This document shows positions 23,476 through 34,962 of a DNA stretch of 38,993 bases, one piece after another (within the stretch, counting starts at the first letter, position 1; each line of letters starts with the position of its first letter). The position numbers were made by a program, and so were the translations under genes. The notes below the pieces were generated by a model that was given only the letters and a program-made list of their open reading frames with translations, ran no database searches and was not told the origin of the DNA. The stretch covers positions 1 to 38,993 of the forward strand of contig JADLBJ010000071.1 of NCBI GenBank assembly GCA_020847765.1. The letters are read 5' to 3'. Source of the DNA: Dehalococcoidia bacterium (lineage in GTDB: Bacteria; Chloroflexota; Dehalococcoidia; Tepidiformales; Tepidiformaceae).

Positions 23476-24429
23476 TCAGGGGGATTTGTCTTCCGCCAGG
23501 GCGGGCGATAGCGACGGCCCGGAGAGGGCGAGGACGGCCAGGCCAACGACGACGAGGCCGCTCTGGTAGGTGTTATGAAGGCCGACGCCTCCGGCCAGGA
23601 CGAGGAGGAAGCCGAGGAGGGTCATGAAGCGTCGCGTGCCGAGCAGGTGCAAGAGGGTGAAGGACAGGGCGCCAGCGGCCAAAGCGTAGATCGCCGACGG
23701 AAGGGTCCCGGAGAGGCCTTCGTTCCAGAGCAAGAGGATGCGGGTGGTGGGACCGCCCGCACCGAGGAGGCTGCCGAAGACGACCAGGGCGACAGCACCG
23801 GCAGCGAGGGCGGTGCGGCGCCTGCAGGCGCCGGGGACGAGCAGCGGAGAGGCGAGGGCGAACGCAACGCCGCCGATCTCAGAGGCGAAAAGGAGGTCGT
23901 GTGCGTCGATTGTGCCGAGTCCGCCCTGGGCGGCAGCCTGAAGGGTCGTGTGGACGGCGCTCAGGGCGAAGGCGGCACCGAAGAGGAGCAGGACGAGCGC
24001 GCCGCGCGTGTTCTGATGGCCGGCGGCGACGCCAGCAAGGGTAACGACGGCCGCGAGCGTGCCGGCGTCCGCCACATGCTCGGGAATGGCGCCGGGACCC
24101 GCAGCAGCGGCGATGGCGGCGAAGGCCGTGAGTGCGACCGCGGCCACGACGCCGGTAAGGGTACGTCGTCGCCAGAGGGCCAGGGCGAGGAGGGGCAGGG
24201 CGGCGATCAGGAGGACGACGGAGAGGTAGTAGGCGTAGCGCCCGAGGCCGGCAAGGAGGGTGTAGGGACCGGCAAGCTCTTCGAGCGCGGGGATGTGGAT
24301 CGCGGTGCGGGTGAAGGTGCGGAGGACGAAGAGCTCGACGAGGGCGGCCAGAGTGAGGCCGCCCACGACGTAGCGCAACGCAGAAGCGTCGAACGCGCCG
24401 GGCTGCGACTGCCGGGGGATGGCGGCCAC
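23476..24429 (-). CDS. Polytopic membrane protein of molybdoenzyme operon, unknown
   Basis: A 317-residue, very hydrophobic protein with roughly eight to ten transmembrane helices separated by short loops. I recognise no family. It contains several His in or near helices (for example AIHIPAL, AVHTTLQ, DAHDLLF, LLHLLG, GLHNTY), which could bind haem or a quinone, but the spacing gives no clear signature. The start is GTG 24429, one base after the stop of the haem-binding subunit, so it is tightly coupled to it. The context suggests it could be the quinone-reactive membrane partner, replacing the NarI-type cytochrome that the operon lacks. That role is inference from gene order. Confidence 0.8.
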   Translation of the reverse strand: MAAIPRQSQPGAFDASALRYVVGGLTLAALVELFVLRTFTRTAIHIPALEELAGPYTLLAGLGRYAYYLSVVLLIAALPLLALALWRRRTLTGVVAAVALTAFAAIAAAAGPGAIPEHVADAGTLAAVVTLAGVAAGHQNTRGALVLLLFGAAFALSAVHTTLQAAAQGGLGTIDAHDLLFASEIGGVAFALASPLLVPGACRRRTALAAGAVALVVFGSLLGAGGPTTRILLLWNEGLSGTLPSAIYALAAGALSFTLLHLLGTRRFMTLLGFLLVLAGGVGLHNTYQSGLVVVGLAVLALSGPSLSPALAEDKSP

Positions 24430-24430
24430 G

Positions 24431-25414
24431 TCAGCGGGCCGCCTTTTCGCGGTAGCCAGAGATGGCCAGGCCGGCGCCGATGACGACGGTGCCGCCCAGG
24501 AGGGCGACGGCGAGGGCGATGGCGAGGGTGTTGTCGCCGCCCCCGGCACCGAGGTCGGTACCGGAAATGGTCAGGCGGACGAAGGCGGAGACAGACTTGC
24601 GGCCGTTGCGGTCGCCTTCACTGCCGTTCCAGACGGCGAAGGCCATGTCGGTGGTGGCGCCGTCGGCGAAGGCGGCCTGACTGGGGTCGGCGCCGGCGTA
24701 GGAGCGGGTGAAGACCACGGCCCAGTTGCCGTTGTTCCAGGCGCCCTGGCCGCGAACGTCCTGGACGTTGGCGATGGTGAGGGTGCCGAAGGTCTGAGAG
24801 ACGAGTGTCTGGACTGGGCCCTGGTCGGGATTGGCGTAGGGATTGCCCGCGGCGCGCGCGGTGTAGAAGAGGGTGTCTTTGGTCGGGTACATGTCCACGA
24901 GAGCGCCGGCATAGACGTCGACGGGGTCCTTGATGCCGGCCTGGGAGTCGGCGCGCCACTGCCAGATGTTGACTCCGGCGTCGGCCTGACCCATGCAGAG
25001 GGCGGGCACGCTGGCGGCACTCTTGGCGGGGAATTCGACGGCAACAGCGTCGGAGAAGTTCTCGACCTTGGTGGTGCTCTCATCCTTGGTGGTGTCGGCC
25101 CATTCGACGCGGACGTAGAGCTTGCCCTGGTAGTGCAGGGCTTTGGCGGAGACGGTGGGAATGCTGCCGCCGCCCGCGGCGTATGTGCCCGCCTGGGCGG
25201 TGAGGGGCACCTGGACGGGCACGGCGTTCTTCCAGACACCGTCAGCCGGGTCGAGGCCCGGATCGCTGCCGGCACTGTAGGCCGTGAGGAAGAGGCTCTG
25301 CGAGGTCGCCGGGTTGGCGTCGAAGAACTGTAGGCCGGCCGCAGCGAGGAGGGCGGCGGCAGCACCCAGGCCGAGCTGCCAGCGCCGGCGGACGCGTGGG
25401 AGTCGTTTGTACAT
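24431..25414 (-). CDS. Haem-b subunit, ethylbenzene dehydrogenase gamma-like
   Basis: A 327-residue exported protein anchored at both ends: an N-terminal hydrophobic segment (about 12-28) and a C-terminal helix (about 296-318) ending in GYREKAAR. The extracytoplasmic middle carries the EB_dh-type signature MGQADAGVNIWQWRAD, as in the gamma subunits of type II DMSO-reductase-family enzymes (DdhC, EbdC, NxrC). In those a Met and a Lys ligate one haem b that links the iron-sulfur chain to the membrane; here Met of CMGQ is the likely Met ligand. GAGGT before ATG 25414 supports the start. The C-terminal anchor is unlike the soluble DdhC/EbdC subunits. Confidence 0.87.
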   Translation of the reverse strand: MYKRLPRVRRRWQLGLGAAAALLAAAGLQFFDANPATSQSLFLTAYSAGSDPGLDPADGVWKNAVPVQVPLTAQAGTYAAGGGSIPTVSAKALHYQGKLYVRVEWADTTKDESTTKVENFSDAVAVEFPAKSAASVPALCMGQADAGVNIWQWRADSQAGIKDPVDVYAGALVDMYPTKDTLFYTARAAGNPYANPDQGPVQTLVSQTFGTLTIANVQDVRGQGAWNNGNWAVVFTRSYAGADPSQAAFADGATTDMAFAVWNGSEGDRNGRKSVSAFVRLTISGTDLGAGGGDNTLAIALAVALLGGTVVIGAGLAISGYREKAAR

Positions 25415-25424
25415 GGCTCTTACC

Positions 25425-26189
25425 TCACAAGACGGGAATGCTGTCGACGTCGATGACGGGGCCGGAGATGGCGTCGCCTTCGGCGAGGTCTTCTGGTTCG
25501 GGGGCAGGACGGGAGAGGTCCATGCGCGGCAGTGTGAGCGGGGCGCCGGGGTCGGCGCCGAGGCGAGCGCACTCTTCGTCGACCCAGAGGCGGAGGGCGG
25601 AGCCAAGGGCGAGATAGAACGCGCTGCCTTCGGCACGGGCGACGACGCGCAGGCCGAGGCCGGGAGCCCAGCGGCCGAGGTGCTCGGCGAGGAAGAGGCG
25701 CTCGGCGCGAACGGTCTGGCGAGTGCGGGGGGCGCCGAGGTGGAGGATGGCGTAGACCTCCTTGCGGCAGAGGAAGGCCATGAAGTCGAGCTCGGCGCGG
25801 ATGTCGTCGGGGCGGATGCCGCCGCCGGGGGTGTCGACGCCGAAGGCCCGGTAGAAGCCGGCGACGTCGGCCATGAGGGCAGTCTGCTGGGCGGGCTGGT
25901 CGCAGACGAAGGCGCTCTCGAAGAGCGGGCAGTCGGGCGAGGAGCTGAGGGTGAAGAGGCGCAGGTGGGCCTCGGCAAGCGAGGCGACGGTGGCCTCAGG
26001 GACGAAGCTGCCGAGGGCGGCGACCGGCGTTCCTTCGAGGGCGGGCGCGAGCTCGGCAGCGCAGGCGCGAAGGGCTTCGAGCTCTCGCTCGGCCGGCTCG
26101 CTGAAGGCGCGGGCGAGAAGCTCGTAGGCCGCGGCACGGCGGAGAGCGCTTTCGGCAGCGGAGGCGGGGGGTGCGGCCGATCGGATCAT
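25425..26189 (-). CDS. TorD/NarJ-type molybdoenzyme chaperone
   Basis: A 254-residue, helix-rich cytoplasmic protein. ALRRAAAYELLARAFSEP at the N-terminus, then a segment with FYRAFGVDTPG and RPDDIRAELDFMAFL are the family's diagnostic region (Y/F-x-x-x-G-x, then P-D-H/D-x-x-x-E-L-x-F-M). Chaperones of this group bind the apo catalytic subunit, hold back its Tat signal and help insert the molybdenum cofactor. The D-D pair in RPDDIRAE replaces the usual PDH. It lies between the iron-sulfur subunit (7 bases) and the haem subunit (10 bases), the same place as in NarGHJ and Ddh/Ser-type operons. No Tat or Sec signal is present, as expected. Confidence 0.9.
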   Translation of the reverse strand: MIRSAAPPASAAESALRRAAAYELLARAFSEPAERELEALRACAAELAPALEGTPVAALGSFVPEATVASLAEAHLRLFTLSSSPDCPLFESAFVCDQPAQQTALMADVAGFYRAFGVDTPGGGIRPDDIRAELDFMAFLCRKEVYAILHLGAPRTRQTVRAERLFLAEHLGRWAPGLGLRVVARAEGSAFYLALGSALRLWVDEECARLGADPGAPLTLPRMDLSRPAPEPEDLAEGDAISGPVIDVDSIPVL

Positions 26190-26196
26190 GCGGGCC

Positions 26197-27435
26197 TCAG
26201 ATTGTGTTCATCGTGACTTTGGCGGGCCGTTCGTAGACCGGCTCATCGACGGAGACGCGAACGATCTCGCGGTTCTTGCTGTCGAAGCCGACCACAGTGT
26301 CGTTGAAGAGCTCGCGCACCTGGTTGCCGACCTTGACTTCGCCGGACTTGGGGCCGGGCTCGACTTTGTAGCTGAAGACGATCTGCTGGGTGGCGCGGAA
26401 GAGCTGGAGGACGGCAAGGGTCTCCCGGCTGGGGGCGGTGTAGGCAGCGATCGCGTCGTCCACGCCAGGGCCGAACATCTGGCGCAGGTAGTCGCGCGGG
26501 ACCCAGCGGGGCGGGATGTAGTAGACGTTCGGCTGGGTGCCGAACTGGGGGTAGAGGGGAAGCGCGACCTTCGCCACGTGGACGAGGTAGTAGAGGGGGT
26601 TCTGCCGGTCTTCGAGCCACTGGCCGTCGGCGCCCACCTGAACAAGGCCCTGGAGACGGATCTTGCCGATGCAGGCGGTCATGCAGCGAGTCTCCATCGG
26701 GAGCCCTTCGGTCAGCGGGTCGGTGCCCTCGACGCGCGGATAGCAGCCGATGCACTTCTCCGAGGTGCGCGTGCTCGGCCGGTACATCGACTTCTTGTAG
26801 GGGCAGGCCTCGGTGCACTTGCGGTAGCCGCGGCAGCGGTTCTGGTCGATAAGGACGATGCCGTCTTCGGGGCGCTTGTAGATGGCGTTGCGCGGGCAGG
26901 CGGCGAGGCAGGCGGGATAGGTGCAATGGTTGCAGATGCGCTGGAGGTAGAAGAACCAGCCGCTGTGCTCGGGGAGGCTAACGCCGTTCTTGGAGAAGGC
27001 GGTGGCCGTGTCCTCGTGGAGGTTCGGGCCCTTCCATTCGTCTTCGGTGGGAATGTAGCCGGTGACGACCTGGTTCACGCCGTCGGCGGTTTCGAAGATC
27101 GTCTTGCCTTCGAAGGTGCCGTAAGGCGCGGTTTTCGGGTCCTTCTTCGTAGCATTCCAGACCTGGGCGCCGGGGTTCGCCTTCTCCTGGAGGTCGAGAA
27201 TCTTGACGTCCCAGTGGCGAGGGAAGCCGCCGTACGGCTTGGTCTCGACGTTGTTCCACCACATCAGCTCCTGGCCCGGAGAGAAGGTCCAGGTGGACTT
27301 GCAGGCCATAGTGCAGGTCTGGCATGCGATGCAGCGGTTGGTGTTGAAGACGGCGGCAAACTGACGCTGGGCGCCACCGTTGGGGTAGCGGTAGTCCATC
27401 TGCCGGCCGAGCTGCCAGTTGTAGACGGGGGGCAT
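26197..27435 (-). CDS. Iron-sulfur (beta) subunit of type II DMSO reductase-family enzyme
   Basis: A 412-residue electron-transfer subunit with four cluster sites. Cys35, 38, 41 and 45 (CIACQTCTMAC) form the first; CNHCTYPACLAACP the next; CRGYRKCTEACPYKK has Tyr where a fourth Cys would be, as in NarH where Trp occupies that place and a [3Fe-4S] cluster results. The fourth is CIGCYPRVEGTDPL with a later CMTACIGKIR. NarH/NxrB/DdhB-like homologues share the CYPR element, and the whole reads closest to NxrB in character. It has no signal of its own and would be co-exported with the Tat-targeted catalytic subunit. Its ATG overlaps the upstream small gene's stop. Confidence 0.93.
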   Translation of the reverse strand: MPPVYNWQLGRQMDYRYPNGGAQRQFAAVFNTNRCIACQTCTMACKSTWTFSPGQELMWWNNVETKPYGGFPRHWDVKILDLQEKANPGAQVWNATKKDPKTAPYGTFEGKTIFETADGVNQVVTGYIPTEDEWKGPNLHEDTATAFSKNGVSLPEHSGWFFYLQRICNHCTYPACLAACPRNAIYKRPEDGIVLIDQNRCRGYRKCTEACPYKKSMYRPSTRTSEKCIGCYPRVEGTDPLTEGLPMETRCMTACIGKIRLQGLVQVGADGQWLEDRQNPLYYLVHVAKVALPLYPQFGTQPNVYYIPPRWVPRDYLRQMFGPGVDDAIAAYTAPSRETLAVLQLFRATQQIVFSYKVEPGPKSGEVKVGNQVRELFNDTVVGFDSKNREIVRVSVDEPVYERPAKVTMNTI

Positions 27436-27704
27436 CAGGACACCTCCTGGGCTTCGGGGCCGTAGACTTCGTCGACGAGGCGGTGGACGAACCCCTCGCC
27501 GCGATTGGCGAGGATGGCGTGGGTGCCGGCGAAGTAGGGCGAGCGGAAGAGGTTGAGGAGCTTCTGTCGGGGCATGCCCATGAGGGCGTACTCCTCGATG
27601 AAGACGCGGGCCATGACTTCGTCGCCGTCGACGCCCGGTTCGAAGGGGAAGCGGACGTTGACGAGCTCGTACGGGTCGTCGGCTTCGAGCTCTTTTTCGG
27701 CCAT
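27435..27704 (-). CDS. 89-residue conserved-looking small protein between alpha and beta genes
   Basis: A short acidic protein (MAEKELEADDPYELVNVRFP, then FIEEYALMGMPRQKLLNLFRSPYFAGTHAI and VHRLVDEVYG). It is predicted to be helical, with no signal, membrane segment or Cys. I recognise no family. It sits one base after the catalytic subunit stop and its own stop overlaps the beta-subunit ATG, so it is probably translated at a stoichiometry close to theirs. Candidate roles are an extra chaperone or assembly factor, or a small structural subunit. Lack of a Tat signal favours a cytoplasmic role unless it rides with the complex. Confidence 0.8.
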   Translation of the reverse strand: MAEKELEADDPYELVNVRFPFEPGVDGDEVMARVFIEEYALMGMPRQKLLNLFRSPYFAGTHAILANRGEGFVHRLVDEVYGPEAQEVS

Positions 27705-27705
27705 G

Positions 27706-30700
27706 TCAGGCCCTCCTGGTGGTGGTCAGCTTGCCGGCGAGGTAGCTGAGCATGGTGGGGTTCTCTTCGCCCGGGGACATGCCGGTGGTGCCGCCGGCCC
27801 AGGCACCCTGCCCGTTGAGGCCACCGGCTTCGGCCTTCGTGATGCGGACGAGGGTTTCCTTGGGGACGGTGTTGACGGCGTGGTTGTCGGCTTCGCCGCC
27901 GAAGATGAAGGCCTGGGCGACCTTGGCCTTGTGGAAGAGGGTGTCGGTCTGGTGCATCGGCATCGACCAGTCCTTGGTCACGCTCTGGTGGGAGCCGTAG
28001 CGAAAGCTGGACTGGTAGCCGGTGTCGGCAGAGACGGCCCGCTTGTCGGGGCGCGTCTCATGGGAGCGGACGGTCTTTTCCGTGGAGATGAAGCCGCCGT
28101 GCTTGGTCATGACGACGCCGGGCGGGTAGGCCGGATTGAACTTGACGCGAAGCATGAGGCGGGCTGTCTTGTAATGCGGGTCGTCGGCCTTCCAGCCCAG
28201 GTAGGGGCGGTCGGCGGGGTTGGCGTCCACCCAGACGTAGTCGCCTTCGGCGAGGTTGAGGCGGCGAGCGTCTTCCGGGTTCATGTGGAGCTGCTGGTCC
28301 CCGACGCCGGGGAGGCGCTTGTCGGCACGGTAGGGATCGCTGAAGTTGCTCGCCCAGAGGACGAGCCAGTCGGTGACGCCCCAGGAGGAGTGGACGGTGT
28401 GACGGGTCTTCGGGGTGAGGAAGTAGAAGTTGAAGCCCTGCTCCCAGAGCGGGTTCTTGGTGTTCTTCACTTCCGCCCAGGGGAGGCGGACGTTGCGCAC
28501 GGTGCGGCGTTCGGGGTCCATGTCGTCGCGCGCGATGCCGTAGTCGTTCGGGCGGATGAGGGGGTTGGAGCTGACGATGACGTTGGGGAGGAAGGGGGTG
28601 GCTTCGGGGCCTTCGCGGTGGACGATGAAGTTCTCGCCGTACTCGATGGCCTCGGGGATGTCGCAATACGAGTTCAGGCGACCGGTGTCGGTGTGGAAGG
28701 GGAAGCTATCGTGGACCTGCTCCCAGTAGGGCACGCGCGGGTAGCTGCGGAACTGCATGAGTGCGCTGCCCGGCTCGCCGAACTTGCCGGCGAGGATGTC
28801 CTTCACCTGGTAGCCGCGGGTGGTGGCAGAGGAGTCGACGAGGCGCTGCATGTAGACGTCGGCGCGCCCCTCGAGGGCGAACTTCCAATAGTCGGCGAAG
28901 CGCCTGTCGCCGGTTTCGTCGGAGAGAGCTTTGGCGACGCCGGCAAGGATCGCGATGTCGTCCTTGGTGTCGAACATGGACTTGACACCGCCCTTCCAGA
29001 TCTGGAGGAAGGGGTTCTGGCAGGAGGCGGTGACTTCGACCTGGTCCGTTTCGAGCCAGGAGTTGGCCGGGAGGATGAAGTCGGAGTACTCGCAGGTCGA
29101 GGTCATCTCGATGTCCTGCGTCATGACCATGTCGATCTTGGGAAGGACGTTGAAGAGGACGCCATAGGCCCACTTGGCGTTGTTCATGATGTTGACGTTG
29201 ACGGTCCACATGAACTTGGTGGGGGTGGGCATGTGGGACTTGCCGGTGAAGACCCTGTGACCGGCGCCGGGCGTGTCGACGACGAGGGCGCGGTCACCGT
29301 GGTCCCAATAGGCGGGTTCTTCGTCCTTGGTGTAGGCGTGGGCGTGAATGTCCTTGCCGTCCGTGGCGAGGTCTAGGTTCATCTCGAAGGGGTCTTCGGC
29401 GATCCAGCCCTTGAACCCGGGGCCGCTCTCGGGGCTGCCCTGGAAGAGAGCGGCCTTGTAGTTGCCAGCCCAGGAGAAGGCGCCGGCGCCGGGGACGCCG
29501 ATGTTGCCGGTGAGCATGAGCGGCAGGTAGGTGGCGCGGTTATGGAGCGTGGCGTGGAACCAGTGGTTGATGCCTTCGCCCACGTGGATGGCGACTGGCT
29601 TGATGGTTGCGATGTCGTTGGCCAAGCGCTCGATGAGGTCTTTCGGGGAGTGTGAGATCTCGGCGACGGTGTCGAGGTCGTAGTCGGCGAGGTGGAGGCG
29701 GTAGGCCTGCCAGAGGGTGAGGACCTCGACCTGCTTGCCGTCGAGCGTGGTGACGGTGCCGGTGTATTCGAGGTCGGGGTCGACGCCGCTTTCGGTGAGC
29801 TTCTTGCCGACGAGCTCCCGGGTGATGGGCTTGAGGGACTTCGTCTTGGCGTCGTAGACGACGTAGTCCTGGAGCTTCTGGTACTGGGCGGCGGTCAGGC
29901 CCTGGATCTTGAAGCTCGAGCCGTCCGGCGAGAGGCCGGGTTTATAGCCGGCGACGACGTCGGCGGGGTTGAGGCGCTTGAGGTTGTCCTTGCGGATGAG
30001 GAGGGGGAAGTCGGTGAAGGCTTTGACGAAGGCCGCGTCGTAGAGGTTGCGGTCCATCAGGAGCTTGGTGACGCCGAGGAAGATGGCGGTGTCGCCGAGG
30101 CCGGGGCGGCAGGGGATCCAGTAGTCGGCCTTGGTGGCGGGCGGGCTGTATTCGGGAGTGATTGTGACGATCTTGCCGCCGCGCTCCATCATCTCAATGA
30201 AGAAGTGGGCGTCGGCCATCTTGTTCTCGACGAGGTTCTTGCCAACGCCGATATGGAGCTTGGCGTTGCGCATGTCATTGAAGTCGCAGTCGGAGTTCTG
30301 GAGGCCAGTGACGAAGGGGGTGCCTGGGGCCTGGTCGCCGTGCCAGGTGTAGTTGGACCAGTTGCGGCCACCGCGGGCGTCTTCGGGCTTGACGCCACGG
30401 ACGAAGACGTCGAGGAGGGCCATGGCGTTGGAGTTGCGGTACATGCCGTACTTGCCGAGGACGCCGAGAAGGCCCATGCCACCACGGAACTTCATGGTGC
30501 GGGTACCGGCGCCGCCCATCTCTTCCACCATTTCGGGCTGATAGCCTTCGGCAAGGAGGATCTTCTTGCCCTCTTCGCCGGAATAGCGCTTGGCGACGGC
30601 GACCATGCCTTTGGCGGCGTAGCGGAAGGTCTCGTCCCAGGTGAGTTTGACGAAGGTGTCAAGGCCGCGGGAGTCGAACTTGTACTTGGTGCGGTTGGCG

Positions 30701-31158
30701 GCGTCGAGGCCGGGGAAGCCGTCGTCGGCCCACTGCTTCCAGCCGGCGCGGATCATGGGGTACTTGAGGCGGTAGGGGCCGTAGACGCGGCGGGTGAGGG
30801 CGGCGCCTTTGTTGCAGCCGCGGGGGTTCCAGGCGATTGTCGCCTTGTTGCCCTGGAGGTCGCCGATGTTCTGGTGGTCGTAGTTCTGCTCGGTGCGGAG
30901 GACGACACCGTTGCGGACGAAGGCGCGGAGGCGGCAGTTATGGGTGCAGGTGGGGGCGCAGACGAAAGTGAAGCTGCTGTCGTACTTGTACTGGTCGCGG
31001 TAGACCTGTTCCCAGCCGCGGTTGGGGTAGACGGCGAGGGGGTTGGTGATGCCCGGCGCTGTCTGCAGGAAGGCGAGCTGGCGTTCGGCATAGATGCCCG
31101 CGCCCGCAGCGACGGCCGCTGTGCCCACCTTGAGGAAACCCCGGCGGTTGAGTCCCAT
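27706..31158 (-). CDS. Tat-exported molybdopterin oxidoreductase, Nxr/extracytoplasmic Nar-like
   Basis: The catalytic subunit, 1150 residues. A twin-arginine signal (RRGFLKVGTAAVAAGAG, from residue 5) sends it outside the membrane. The FS0 cluster motif is Cys67-x3-Cys71-x3-Cys75 with a fourth Cys at 114 (NPRGCNKG). Most type II enzymes have His first. The Mo ligand Asp is likely Asp275 in WHGDQAPGTP, the place of the Asp in NarG/DdhA-type enzymes. Segments such as TITPEYSPPATKADYW and FTDFPLLIRKDNLKRLNPADVV resemble NxrA and archaeal-type extracytoplasmic NarG, and the length fits them better than selenate, chlorate or DMS enzymes (about 920 residues). ATG 31158 has GGAGGAG seven bases before it. 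Substrate probably nitrate or nitrite; direction unknown. Confidence 0.93.
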   Translation of the reverse strand: MGLNRRGFLKVGTAAVAAGAGIYAERQLAFLQTAPGITNPLAVYPNRGWEQVYRDQYKYDSSFTFVCAPTCTHNCRLRAFVRNGVVLRTEQNYDHQNIGDLQGNKATIAWNPRGCNKGAALTRRVYGPYRLKYPMIRAGWKQWADDGFPGLDAANRTKYKFDSRGLDTFVKLTWDETFRYAAKGMVAVAKRYSGEEGKKILLAEGYQPEMVEEMGGAGTRTMKFRGGMGLLGVLGKYGMYRNSNAMALLDVFVRGVKPEDARGGRNWSNYTWHGDQAPGTPFVTGLQNSDCDFNDMRNAKLHIGVGKNLVENKMADAHFFIEMMERGGKIVTITPEYSPPATKADYWIPCRPGLGDTAIFLGVTKLLMDRNLYDAAFVKAFTDFPLLIRKDNLKRLNPADVVAGYKPGLSPDGSSFKIQGLTAAQYQKLQDYVVYDAKTKSLKPITRELVGKKLTESGVDPDLEYTGTVTTLDGKQVEVLTLWQAYRLHLADYDLDTVAEISHSPKDLIERLANDIATIKPVAIHVGEGINHWFHATLHNRATYLPLMLTGNIGVPGAGAFSWAGNYKAALFQGSPESGPGFKGWIAEDPFEMNLDLATDGKDIHAHAYTKDEEPAYWDHGDRALVVDTPGAGHRVFTGKSHMPTPTKFMWTVNVNIMNNAKWAYGVLFNVLPKIDMVMTQDIEMTSTCEYSDFILPANSWLETDQVEVTASCQNPFLQIWKGGVKSMFDTKDDIAILAGVAKALSDETGDRRFADYWKFALEGRADVYMQRLVDSSATTRGYQVKDILAGKFGEPGSALMQFRSYPRVPYWEQVHDSFPFHTDTGRLNSYCDIPEAIEYGENFIVHREGPEATPFLPNVIVSSNPLIRPNDYGIARDDMDPERRTVRNVRLPWAEVKNTKNPLWEQGFNFYFLTPKTRHTVHSSWGVTDWLVLWASNFSDPYRADKRLPGVGDQQLHMNPEDARRLNLAEGDYVWVDANPADRPYLGWKADDPHYKTARLMLRVKFNPAYPPGVVMTKHGGFISTEKTVRSHETRPDKRAVSADTGYQSSFRYGSHQSVTKDWSMPMHQTDTLFHKAKVAQAFIFGGEADNHAVNTVPKETLVRITKAEAGGLNGQGAWAGGTTGMSPGEENPTMLSYLAGKLTTTRRA

Positions 31159-31174: not shown

Positions 31175-32206
31175 CTACGGTGCAGCCGCGGCGGCGCATG
31201 GCCGGCAGCGGGTGCCTGCTTCGGTGACGATCTCACGCCCGTCGGACACCTCTTCGCCGCAGAGTCCGCAGAGGACGCGGCGGCGTGGGGGCCCGGGCAG
31301 GTCGAATTGGGAGGGTTCGGGAGCTGTCGGCGAGACGGTGAAGAGGTCGGCCGGGGCGAGCTGGAGGTAGGCCAGCCGCTGGCGGTCATGGCGGTCCTCG
31401 GGGCCGGGGAAGTCGGCAGCGCGCTCGCGGAGGTCGCCGCGGACGGCGACGCGGACGCCGCGCCCGGCCCACTGATCGAAGAAGGTGGCTGCGAGCTTGC
31501 CGTAGTCGAGGAGGCGGAGGGTGCGCTTGCCCGGGCGGCAGCCGGTGACAGCCTGGATAGCGTCGACGGCACAGCGGTCGGTCTCGACGGTGACGAGGAG
31601 ACGCTTGCTGCTGTCGGGCACGTCGACGCCCAGGGCGCGGGCGCCTTGGAGGGCGAGGCGGGTGCCGAGGACGAGGCCGGCGCAGGCGTGGCTGCCGTGA
31701 ACGCGCATCGCGGCGCGGAGGGCGTGATCGAGCTGGCGATCGACCGGGAGGAGGGGGATGATCGCGTCAACCGCGGCTGTGGCGGCGGCGTCGACGGTCG
31801 GAAGCGTCCAGCGGCCGAGGACGACCTCGTCGGGGGCAGGGTCGATCGTGTCACTGACGAGAGCGGGGAAGGGCTCCGGCGTATGCGTTTCGACGAGGGC
31901 GAGGTCGATGCCGTCGGGGAGAGCGGCAAGGAGGTCCTGGACGGCGGGCTCGGGCGCAGGGGTCGTGACCTGAAGGCGCTCGGGATCGCGAATGACCATG
32001 GCAGAGGGGCGGCGCTGCCAGACGCGGCCCGAGGCCTTTTCTGGGAGGTCCAGGGGATGATGGGTACGCTTGAGGTAGGCGACGCGCAGGCCACGCGCTT
32101 CGAAAGCGACGATCAGACGTTCACAGACGGCGGTCTTACCCGAGCGGGAAGGCCCCCGCACGCAGATCGCAGTGGGTCCGATGAAGCCGGCGGGCAGGTC
32201 GGTCAT
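31175..32206 (-). CDS. MobB-FmdE fusion protein
   Basis: A 343-residue two-part protein. Residues 1-145 form a MobB-like P-loop GTPase: Walker A GPSRSGKT (18-25) and the early VAYLKRTHHP strand where MobB has its switch-like His pair. Residues 150-290 look like an FmdE domain, with DHALRAAMRVHGSHACAGLVLG and a later DRCAVDAIQAVTGC, a region of conserved Cys and His. The tail holds a zinc-ribbon-like set, CGLCGEEVSDG and CRPC. MobB helps attach nucleotide to molybdopterin; FmdE is a metal- or cofactor-binding protein of formylmethanofuran dehydrogenase operons and of many others. The gene leads the operon 16 bases before the catalytic subunit. Start ATG 32206; AGGGA lies just before it and GGAG about 14 bases upstream. 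Confidence 0.85.
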   Translation of the reverse strand: MTDLPAGFIGPTAICVRGPSRSGKTAVCERLIVAFEARGLRVAYLKRTHHPLDLPEKASGRVWQRRPSAMVIRDPERLQVTTPAPEPAVQDLLAALPDGIDLALVETHTPEPFPALVSDTIDPAPDEVVLGRWTLPTVDAAATAAVDAIIPLLPVDRQLDHALRAAMRVHGSHACAGLVLGTRLALQGARALGVDVPDSSKRLLVTVETDRCAVDAIQAVTGCRPGKRTLRLLDYGKLAATFFDQWAGRGVRVAVRGDLRERAADFPGPEDRHDRQRLAYLQLAPADLFTVSPTAPEPSQFDLPGPPRRRVLCGLCGEEVSDGREIVTEAGTRCRPCAAAAAP

Positions 32207-32255: not shown

Positions 32256-32269
32256 ATGACGTTTGTCAA
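32256..32269. promoter_or_regulatory. FNR/DNR-like dyad between the two divergent units
   Basis: On the minus strand the site reads TTGAC-aaac-GTCAT, a dyad with one mismatch to TTGAC-N4-GTCAA, close to the FNR consensus TTGAT-N4-ATCAA. It is the only such match in the 154-base gap. Its centre is about 42 bases upstream of the start predicted from TATTCG, the usual position for activation by Fnr/Crp-type regulators. It could also serve the operon on the other strand, where the centre lies 56 bases before the first ATG. Confidence 0.55.
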
Positions 32270-32360: not shown

Positions 32361-33062
32361 ATGCATACTGGAGGCGTGGCAGGCGGGGCGACAGCTGCAG
32401 AGATCCGGGCGATCCCCTATCTGAGCGCGATGACGGAGGCCGAGGCGGAGGCGTTCGCGGCGGAGCTGCCGGTACGGAGCTACCGGCCGCGCGAGTTCAT
32501 CGTGATCGCGGGGGAAAAGGCGATCGGGTTCTACCTGCTGCGCGCGGGAAAGGCACGCATCTTTCGTACCGGAGCAGATGGACGGGAGCAGATCTTTCGG
32601 CTGGTGACGCCGGGGCAGACGTTCGCCGAGGTGCCCATCTTCGACGGCGGTCCGAACCCGGCGACGGTGGAGGCGATCGAGGCGTGCGAGGTCGTGTTCT
32701 TCCCGGCGGAGCGGATGCAGCGCCTGGTGCTGGCGCGACCGGATATTGGGCTGGCGGTGATCCGCTACATGGCGCGGCGGATTCGCGCCTTTACGGACCT
32801 GGTGGAGCAGATCAGCCTGCAGACGGTGCAGAGCCGGCTGGCGCGCTACCTGTACCAGGTGGCGCGGGAGGAAGGGTTGGTGACGGAGGAGGGGACAGTC
32901 ATCCGCCGAGAGCTGACGCTGCAGGACCTGGCGGCGCTCGTCGGTTCGGTTCGGGAGGTGGTGAGCCGAACGATGCGGGTGCTGGAGGAGGACGGCGTGG
33001 TGATCGTCCGCCGGAAGGAGATCGTGATCCGAGACGTGGAAGAGCTCAGCCGGTTGCTCTGA
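32361..33062 (+). CDS. Crp/Fnr-family regulator, no cluster cysteines
   Basis: A 233-residue regulator. The N-terminal cyclic-nucleotide-like beta barrel carries FYLLRAGKARIFR and TPGQTFAEVPIFDGG. A long dimerisation helix (RYMARRIRAFTDLVEQISL) leads to a winged HTH with LTLQDLAALVGSVREVVSRTMRVLEEDGVV. The recognition helix has R-E-x-x-S-R, combining Arg/Glu of Crp with the E-x-x-S-R of Fnr, compatible with a TTGAC/TTGAT-type half site. The only Cys (in EACEVV) is far from an Fnr [4Fe-4S] site, so it is more likely a Dnr-like, haem or ligand sensor. ATG 32361 has AAGGG upstream. The 3' end overlaps the convergent DUF59 gene by 17 bases. Confidence 0.94.
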   Translation: MHTGGVAGGATAAEIRAIPYLSAMTEAEAEAFAAELPVRSYRPREFIVIAGEKAIGFYLLRAGKARIFRTGADGREQIFRLVTPGQTFAEVPIFDGGPNPATVEAIEACEVVFFPAERMQRLVLARPDIGLAVIRYMARRIRAFTDLVEQISLQTVQSRLARYLYQVAREEGLVTEEGTVIRRELTLQDLAALVGSVREVVSRTMRVLEEDGVVIVRRKEIVIRDVEELSRLL

Positions 33063-33366
33063 CCTCGCGGACGGGGAAGCCGAGGGCGCTGAGGGCCTCG
33101 TCGCTCGCCATGCGGATGTCCCAGGGAGGATCGAAGACGGGACGAACTTCGATCTCCTCGCCGGGGAAGCGAAGGCTGAGCATCGTCTCGGCGTCTTCGA
33201 GGATGGCGGGGCCCATGGGGCAGGAGGCGGTGGTGGTCGTCATGAGGACGGCGGCGCGGCCCGGCTCGGTCTCGATGCTGTAGACGAGGCCGAGGGCGAC
33301 GACGTCGATGCCGAGCTCGGGGTCGTAGACGTGGGCGAGGGTTTCGGCGACCTGGCGGGAATTCAT
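33046..33366 (-). CDS. DUF59/MIP18-type protein
   Basis: A 106-residue protein of the MIP18/PaaD/SufT type. It begins with the helix RQVAETLAHVYDPELGIDVVALGLVY, the family's DPE-x-x-x-x-x-x-x-L-G motif, and has TTTTASCPMGPAI, whose single Cys is the family's reactive/Fe-S-linked residue. A late DPPWDIRMAS matches the family's W-x-x-x-x-M/I-x. These proteins assist iron-sulfur cluster assembly. It is the last gene of a three-gene operon and its ATG overlaps the stop of the membrane protein (ATGA). An assembly factor here would suit the iron-sulfur-rich enzyme next door. Confidence 0.9.
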   Translation of the reverse strand: MNSRQVAETLAHVYDPELGIDVVALGLVYSIETEPGRAAVLMTTTTASCPMGPAILEDAETMLSLRFPGEEIEVRPVFDPPWDIRMASDEALSALGFPVREVRATG

Positions 33367-34679
33367 ACGGTGATCCTCTTGGAAAGCGCGGGCTGGGGCG
33401 CGCGGCTGGCGTGCTTGGGCAGGAACATGTGGACGAGGCCGACAAGATGGAGGAGGCCCCCGACGACGAGGAGGGCACCGCCGGCCTGCAGGGCGGGGAC
33501 GCTGCCGACGAGGGCGGAGACAGCGACGGTGGCGACGGCCAGAGAGACCCCGGCAAGAGCGACGGTGGCAAGGCGTTCGCTGTAGATGTCGGAGACGACA
33601 GGCACGGCTTCAAGGCCGACGCGCGGGCGGTAGCGATGGTACCAGATGAGGAAGGGAAGGATCTTGAAGCTGTTGCCGATGAGGGCACTGCCGAGCCAGC
33701 CGCCAATGCCGGCGGCGGCGTAGGCGAGGAGCCAGCGGGCAGACTCGTCGCCGGGCGTGAACGGGGTGCCGAGGGCGGCGCCGGCACCGAGGAGGACGGC
33801 GAGCACGAGCCAGACGAGGGCGACGAGCATCGAATGGCCCTGGATGTCGAGGCGGCGCTTGGAGCGACCAAGGAGCAGGCGGACGACGTCGACGCCCCAG
33901 AGGAGGGGGGCGACAGCGAGAAGGAGGGCGAGCGGCAGGCGGACGGCCGGGCCGGGGTCGGTGGCGACGACGGCCGCGAAGGTGGTGAGGGCAAGGCTCA
34001 TGATGATGAGGACGGGAGTGCCGAAACGCGGCCGGACGCGGGTGACAACGTTGAACATGGGAACGAGCTGGTAGGAGAGGCCCATGAGGGTAATCCCAAG
34101 CCAGCCGACGAGGCCGACGTGGGCGTGGGCGGAGAGGCGACCCATGGTAATGGGGAACCAGAGGTGCTCGAGGGTTCCGACCCAGGTGAGGCCAAGGCCG
34201 CCGGCGATGGCCAGCCAGGCGAGTCCGAGGGCGGCTGCGGCACGCGGGACGGAGCGGCTGCGGGCGCGGGCGACGGCGACCCCGGCGTTGGCCATGAAGA
34301 GGACGAGGGATACGAAGATGCCGCTGCCGGCGATCCCCATGAGGGGAACGTCCCACTGCCAGGCGCTCCAGACGAAGAAGCTGACGGAGAGGACGTGGAT
34401 GACGAACTGGACGCGGGCGAGCCGCTCGGACCAGAGGCGACCGCTCAGGACGGCGGGCGCCATCTGGTAAAGGGCCCCCATCATCGTCGTGGTGATCCAG
34501 CCGAGGACCACGGCGTGGGTGATAGCCACGTTGCGGGGGAGATTGATCGCTTGGAAGGAGAGGTGTCCAGCATTGGCGAGGAGCAGGCCCGCGGCGACGA
34601 GGCCGAGGGGGGCAGCCAGGAAGAATGGCGCGATCAGGCCGAGGGGAGGGCTCTGGGTGGGAGCAACCCGCGCGGTCAT
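33363..34679 (-). CDS. Polytopic His-containing membrane protein, haem-copper oxidase subunit I-like
   Basis: A 438-residue protein of about 12 transmembrane helices. The helix THAVVLGWITTTMMGALYQMAPAV (His55) closely resembles AHAHVGLVGWLGITLMGLSYQLVPMF (His185/His187): H-x-x-x-x-G-W-x-x-x-x-M-x-G-x-x-Y-Q-x-x-P. The HAHVGLVGWLG element is typical of proteins annotated as CcoN- or NorB-like. Candidate haem ligands are His55, His185 and His187; the Cu-B His pair and cross-linked Tyr of true oxidases are not evident. Its likely role is haem-b electron transfer or binding of NO or quinone. The ATG overlaps the DUF2249 stop (ATGA), and the gene order DUF2249, this protein, DUF59 suggests one operon. 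Confidence 0.8.
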   Translation of the reverse strand: MTARVAPTQSPPLGLIAPFFLAAPLGLVAAGLLLANAGHLSFQAINLPRNVAITHAVVLGWITTTMMGALYQMAPAVLSGRLWSERLARVQFVIHVLSVSFFVWSAWQWDVPLMGIAGSGIFVSLVLFMANAGVAVARARSRSVPRAAAALGLAWLAIAGGLGLTWVGTLEHLWFPITMGRLSAHAHVGLVGWLGITLMGLSYQLVPMFNVVTRVRPRFGTPVLIIMSLALTTFAAVVATDPGPAVRLPLALLLAVAPLLWGVDVVRLLLGRSKRRLDIQGHSMLVALVWLVLAVLLGAGAALGTPFTPGDESARWLLAYAAAGIGGWLGSALIGNSFKILPFLIWYHRYRPRVGLEAVPVVSDIYSERLATVALAGVSLAVATVAVSALVGSVPALQAGGALLVVGGLLHLVGLVHMFLPKHASRAPQPALSKRITV

Positions 34680-34897
34680 TCGCTCGCCCGGCGCACCGTC
34701 AGGGAATAGCCGTCGGCGCCTTCGGCGAAGTCCCAGGTAAAGCCGCGCCGTTCGAGTTCGGGGTAGAGGAGCATGGGCTCGCGGTCCATATGTGCGAAGA
34801 GCTCGTCGCCGTCGGCCAGATCTTTGAGGGCGGCGAGGATGCGAACCATGGGCTCGGGCGGTTGCAGGCCGCGATTGTCGAGTTCAATAGTTGCCAC
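34676..34897 (-). CDS. DUF2249 protein (third copy)
   Basis: A 73-residue DUF2249 protein with IELDNRGLQPPEPMVRILAAL, GDELFAHMDREPMLLYPELERRGF and a terminal YSLTVRRAS strand. LDNRGLQPPEP is the family's N-terminal strand with the Pro-Pro-Glu-Pro turn. The GTG at 34897 begins the recognised domain; an earlier GTG at 34945 would add 16 residues. A candidate Fnr-like site at 34963-34976 implies a transcript start near 34928, which favours 34897. Third DUF2249 protein within 12 kb, first gene of the operon with the His-containing membrane protein. Confidence 0.83.
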   Translation of the reverse strand: MATIELDNRGLQPPEPMVRILAALKDLADGDELFAHMDREPMLLYPELERRGFTWDFAEGADGYSLTVRRASE

Positions 34898-34962
34898 GAA
34901 AACACCGTGCCAGCGGGTCGCGGCGGCTGATGCGACTTTGGTCACGCTCGGCGCATCGTCCC

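Follow-up and report, generated by a model that had tools for sequence, protein, structure and literature searches.

The window, a 38,993-nt stretch of contig JADLBJ010000071.1 from a Dehalococcoidia bacterium, encodes a natural fusion of MobB, a cofactor-synthesis adaptor, with FmdE. The gene directly precedes that of the catalytic subunit in an operon for a molybdoenzyme of the type II DMSO reductase family. The fusion co-occurs with this enzyme among the genomes of the window's family and is tied to type II enzymes in other families of the class. These observations make it probable that the fusion is a dedicated maturation factor for this enzyme class.

Domain organization of the MobB-FmdE fusion

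The fusion ORF (31175..32206, minus strand) runs from an ATG at 32206 to a TAG ending at 31175 and encodes 343 amino acid residues. It was characterized by Pfam matches to MobB and FmdE, alignment with 18 orthologues, and an AlphaFold2 model searched with Foldseek. In the alignment the reading frame is conserved across the 18 orthologues at 46-66% identity.

The MobB domain (residues 14-115; 31862..32167, minus strand) matched PF03205 at 49 bits (cut-off 26.6 bits) and is the only MobB match of the genome assembly. It contains the Walker A motif GPSRSGKT at residues 18-25 (32132..32155, minus strand), so that the MobB-type P-loop named in the first-pass annotation is confirmed. The FmdE core domain (residues 171-266; 31409..31696, minus strand) matched PF02663 at 98 bits (cut-off 22.9 bits) and is likewise the sole FmdE of the assembly. 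This agrees with the Cys/His-rich, FmdE-like domain proposed earlier, and the match falls within residues 150-290, where a missing FmdE match had been named as fatal to the annotation. The putative metal ligands are H170, H173, C175 and C212, with H170 just outside the Pfam match. At the C-terminal end there is a four-Cys, treble-clef-type zinc finger (C313, C316, C334 and C337; 31196..31270, minus strand) with the pattern CxxC-x17-CxxC. Pfam and the sequence thus give the order MobB, FmdE, Cys finger, as first described. The zinc-ribbon-like tail of that description does correspond to a four-Cys finger, but it is an ordinary part of the FmdE architecture and not an extra. Of the three FmdE structures solved, two have a C-terminal treble clef (PMC2954224), and the finger, being normal in many FmdE proteins, adds no oddity to the fusion.

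The motifs of both halves are intact. Over 16 distant fusions, down to 29% identity, G23, K24 and T25 of the P-loop, K46, H50, H173, C175, C212, C223 and several FmdE core residues never vary. Among the 19 orthologues H170, C175, C212 and the four finger Cys are invariant, and H173 is present in 16. Some fusion copies from family f2 have lost the finger together with part of the FmdE motif.

When the fusion was searched against PDB sequences, it matched E. coli MobB (1np6, 1p9n) and three FmdE structures (2gvi, 3d00, 2glz), and no known structure besides MobB and FmdE proteins. The AlphaFold2 model of the monomer (mean pLDDT 86, pTM 0.78) matched the same two folds in Foldseek, 2gvi with an E value of 9e-11. 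Like E. coli MobB (1np6; PF03205 / TIGR00176), the N-terminal half has a P-loop fold (Foldseek probability 1.00), a Walker A motif and a His-rich loop (KRTHH in the fusion, KHTHH in E. coli). Unlike it, the fusion scores 54.5 bits against the NCBIfam mobB equivalog TIGR00176, below the cut-off of 76.2, and carries FmdE; the MobB loop in the window's family is derived, being two residues shorter and reading E-T-H where E-G-F is usual. The C-terminal half shares with the solved FmdE proteins the core fold, the H..H.C..C metal-site residues and the four-Cys treble clef (PMC2954224). It differs in its attachment to MobB, in an extra residue that the window's family has within the HGxHxC motif, and in having a type II enzyme as neighbour, not formylmethanofuran dehydrogenase.

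Fusions involving either partner have been described before. NCBIfam holds models for MobA-MobB, MobB-MoeA, MobB-FeS and MobB-'unknown domain' proteins (PRK14489/90/91/94/95), which also combine MobB with another cofactor-related domain; however, no matching model carries a MobB-FmdE description, and the matches fall in the MobB half. FmdE is known fused to PF00994 (molybdopterin-binding), to PF01980 (UPF0066) and to a regulator, one of these partners being Moco-related, but MobB is not among the partners listed (PMC2954224, PMC11237513). P. putida 'FmdEFGH' was not counted as FmdE, since the name denotes a formate dehydrogenase. Cofactor-biosynthesis fusions are therefore already known, and the MobB-FmdE combination itself is apparently undescribed: we found no prior description in an open-access library.

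The NXR-type operon next to the fusion

The ATG of the alpha gene is located 16 nt past the fusion stop codon, with a GGAGGAG ribosome site in the gap. The catalytic alpha subunit (27706..31158, minus strand) has 1150 residues and a Tat signal, and matches TIGR03479 and TIGR01409. Against full-length Kuenenia NxrA (7b04_B) it scored 1632 bits over 1145 residues, with 60% identity across the first 297; the next best solved structure was 4ydd, also a type II enzyme, at 197 bits. The NxrA match confirms that the enzyme encoded 16 bases downstream is a molybdoenzyme, as had been supposed, and adds its NXR type, which the first-pass annotation had not recognized.

The rest of the operon follows on the minus strand. 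An 89-residue protein (27435..27704) without a Pfam or NCBIfam match is also seen in relatives; it lies between alpha and beta, is kept in NXR-type operons with an alpha of 58-83% identity, and was not detected in those with an alpha of about 42% identity. Next come an NxrB-like beta iron-sulfur subunit of 412 residues (26197..27435; 589 bits to NxrB 7b04_A), a TorD/NarJ-type chaperone (25425..26189; PF02613, TIGR03482) and a gamma heme-b subunit with an EB_dh domain and an uncertain start codon (24431..25420; PF09459 at 112 bits, TIGR03477). The 3' end of the operon is occupied by a hydrophobic, likely membrane protein (23476..24549; start uncertain), which had no Pfam or NCBIfam family match and whose position is conserved in relatives. 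With NxrA- and NxrB-like subunits, a TorD-type chaperone and an EB_dh heme-b subunit, the operon, and by homology its alpha/beta/gamma enzyme, is of NXR type.

The Mo ligand Asp275 (Kuenenia numbering) is kept in the alpha subunit (HGDQAPG). In Kuenenia NXR, Asn70 faces the metal and Asp71 binds the FS0 cluster (PMC8387239). The FS0 motif of the window's alpha, CAPTCTHNC (residues 67-75; 30934-30960), has Thr70-Cys71 in place of this Asn-Asp pair. Most close alpha orthologues have CAPNCTHNC, that is Asn-Cys, and among the relatives compared Thr replaces the metal-facing Asn only in the window's alpha. With Cys at the Asp71 position, all ligands of the FS0 cluster could be Cys, whereas a 3Cys/1Asp or 3Cys/1His cluster has been described for NXR and NAR. 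The alpha thus falls outside the NXR definition of Asn70 facing Mo together with such a 3Cys/1Asp or 3Cys/1His cluster. We call the enzyme NXR-type and not nitrite oxidoreductase because Thr-Cys replaces Asn-Asp.

The same genome contains another NXR-type operon, truncated by the end of its contig (L061 1-2960, G000:C193); its alpha fragment is 62% and its beta 86% identical to those of the window.

Co-occurrence of fusion and enzyme within the family

We searched 37 genomes of the window's family, 21 with and 16 without the alpha subunit. The full fusion was found in 19 of the 21, counting one copy split over two frames (G034) and one cut by a contig end (G004). A 20th genome (G018) has the MobB half, and G012 has neither half. 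Neither the fusion nor a half was found in any of the 16 genomes without alpha (Fisher p ~1e-8, with genomes treated as independent of phylogeny). Comparison within genera agrees in g6 and g16, and in g13 G012 is the sole departure. The fusion lies directly upstream of alpha in 11 genomes and away from the operon in about eight. G012, a 98% complete assembly in one contig, has the NXR-type operon and no MobB or FmdE match; maturation of the enzyme therefore probably does not depend on these domains, and the fusion is not strictly essential for it.

These results bear on whether the fusion belongs to the mature enzyme complex, as a structural or transient subunit, and is not a maturation factor. 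Sharing the operon and directly preceding alpha would fit a subunit. However, alpha has a Tat-signal match and the fusion has none, so the fusion would remain cytoplasmic; it is missing from one enzyme-bearing genome and is encoded elsewhere in others; and the solved methanogen complex, as far as it is cited in PMC11237513, was without observed FmdE. We regard a subunit role as very improbable.

The family comparison also addresses a more general function, in which the fusion would be the sole MobB of the genome and serve every bis-MGD enzyme, with the FmdE half as a passenger or metal buffer. In most genomes carrying it, the fusion is indeed the only MobB over the cut-off. MobA-like genes, however, are present in 38 of 38 family genomes, and MobB over the cut-off is restricted to the enzyme-bearing ones; the enzyme-less genomes with MobA-like genes alone indicate that MobB is not generally needed. 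The FmdE half does not behave like a passenger, as H173, C175, C212 and C223 are kept in all aligned distant fusions, and the fusion is found in or near type II operons, not cofactor-synthesis clusters. A general MobB is thus unlikely, and a factor dedicated to type II enzymes remains the preferred reading.

Several family genomes hold additional or altered copies. In G001 a MobB half without FmdE stands directly before alpha (L047 6262-6723, G001:C7) and an intact fusion is encoded elsewhere in the genome; the FmdE half appears to have been lost following a duplication. In G010 a stop-containing and an intact copy flank a 1079-residue molybdopterin oxidoreductase (L041 2521-3518 and 12490-13578, G010:C1), and a third copy precedes the NXR-type alpha. 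A MOSC-domain gene and a further molybdopterin oxidoreductase are encoded close to displaced copies in G010 and G027.

Linkage to type II enzymes in other families

In a sample of 400 genomes of the phylum, fusions were seen in the window's family only, and FmdE alone (about 200 residues) and MobB alone were common. Confinement to the family was ruled out by a class-wide search of 393 Dehalococcoidia genomes, which also found the fusion in at least families f2, f17, f24, f107 and f134. Outside the window's family the fusion is located at the 5' end of an NXR-type operon in one genome (G470), at the 3' end in three (G596, G537, G649), divergent from it in one (G464) and upstream of it in another (G653). 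Six genomes, belonging to f17 and f134, have the fusion inside EBDH-like type II operons (G532, G606, G592, G614, G584, G567). The alphas tested from these two families reached 860-960 bits against TIGR03479 and at most 861 against the ethylbenzene dehydrogenase model, and beta was above the TIGR03478 cut-off. The survey of frequency and neighbours that the first-pass annotation had called for therefore shows a recurrent fusion, linked to a second, EBDH-like type II branch besides the NXR type. That the gene order varies and the partner class stays constant points to a working link and not to inherited order. Together with the co-occurrence in the family, these settings confirm the proposed association with the downstream molybdoenzyme far more strongly than one locus allows.

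The separate domains are also found in comparable settings. Free-standing MobB is encoded at the 3' end of related NXR-type operons without the fusion in two genomes (G107, G363), and free-standing FmdE near molybdoenzyme operons in three (G369, G107, G336) and on a Deinococcus plasmid. Elsewhere FmdE is often beside TauE/SafE or metal transporters (PMC2954224); among the loci seen here, on enterobacterial, haloarchaeal and betaproteobacterial plasmids (L097, L136, L138), free-standing FmdE adjoins TauE/SafE exporters, and twice metal transporters as well.

A pattern scan for close relatives in 84,980 species genomes returned five loci, from records titled Chloroflexi, Dehalococcoidia, Thermoflexaceae or 'bacterium', and no record of the plasmid collection spanned both fusion halves. 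In an FmdE tree built by a quick method the fused halves form few clusters (3 label changes, versus 23.8 in shuffles), which is compatible with one or several fusion events. NXR-type alphas occur in 18 of the 400 sampled Chloroflexota genomes and form two groups, one sharing about 60-80% and the other about 42% identity with that of the window (L121-L131, L133).

A divergent regulator beside the operon

A Crp/Fnr-family regulator (32361..33062, plus strand; PF00027 and PF13545), with its likely start at 32361, is encoded divergently from the fusion, and it is divergent beside the operon in several relatives. Between the two genes is a possible Crp-type operator, TGACGTTTGTCA (32257..32268). 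The intergenic regions of most relatives contain, by inspection, related palindromes that resemble TGTGAC-N4-GTCACG. Beyond the regulator, genes for a PaaD-like FeS assembly protein, a COX1-like membrane protein and a DUF2249 protein (33046..34945, minus strand; assigned by Pfam) are syntenic with relatives.

Could the fusion itself be a metal or redox sensor that controls the operon, in which the FmdE metal site and finger respond to Mo, W or Zn and the P-loop serves as a switch? Transcriptional regulation has been proposed from FmdE zinc fingers (PMC2954224), and FmdE-regulator fusions are known in Methanosaeta (PMC11237513). On the other side, the Crp/Fnr regulator with its candidate operator already stands divergent beside the operon, and fusion to a cofactor-synthesis adaptor, as well as placement at the 3' end of operons, is unlike a DNA-binding regulator. 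We find this quite improbable, somewhat more so than a general MobB, and return to a maturation factor.

Proposed role of the fusion

From its domains and neighbours we infer how such a factor would act: that it binds GTP, which partners it contacts, which metal it holds and which biochemical step it carries out. The MobB half would be a P-loop adaptor that binds GTP and meets MobA and MoeA of the general cofactor pathway. The FmdE half, which carries the putative metal site and the finger, may dimerise, as FmdE proteins form an intertwined dimer, and might hold a metal or a cofactor intermediate or dock on apo-alpha with the TorD-type chaperone of the operon. In this way the fusion could route finished or nearly finished bis-MGD to type II enzymes before Tat export of alpha. 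The first-pass idea of cofactor maturation coupled to binding or delivery to the enzyme thus stays the preferred one. This specific routing or docking step is put forward tentatively, with less confidence than the maturation role as such. Weighing against the maturation role are the enzyme-bearing G012, the fusions encoded away from the operon, the many FmdE genes beside TauE/SafE or metal transporters, and the degenerate f2 copies. A similar dedication is known from M. extorquens, where MobB, encoded beside its partner MoeA1 and interacting with it, is required for the W-formate dehydrogenase only and not for Mo enzymes; the account of that tungsten route mentions no FmdE domain, and the enzyme served is not of type II (PMC13197769).

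FmdE is an orphan family, named from methanogen operons, and guesses about it range from metal transport to transcription. To our knowledge, no function of FmdE has been experimentally shown in any organism. A broader possibility, which we rate slightly lower than the routing step, is that FmdE in general is a cofactor- or metal-handling loading factor for molybdo- and tungsto-enzymes; in Dehalococcoidia the fusion would then be the missing link that joins MGD synthesis to insertion for type II enzymes of the NXR and EBDH branches. That FmdE is naturally joined to an adaptor of cofactor synthesis, and that this fusion goes with a single enzyme class in several families and two enzyme branches, narrows the role of FmdE to cofactor maturation, and as a small soluble protein the fusion makes that role testable. 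Our results suggest that the fusion helps to build or load the cofactor of type II enzymes. It thereby bears on the supply of bis-MGD to NXR-type and hydrocarbon-hydroxylating type II enzymes, which are relevant to nitrogen and carbon cycling.
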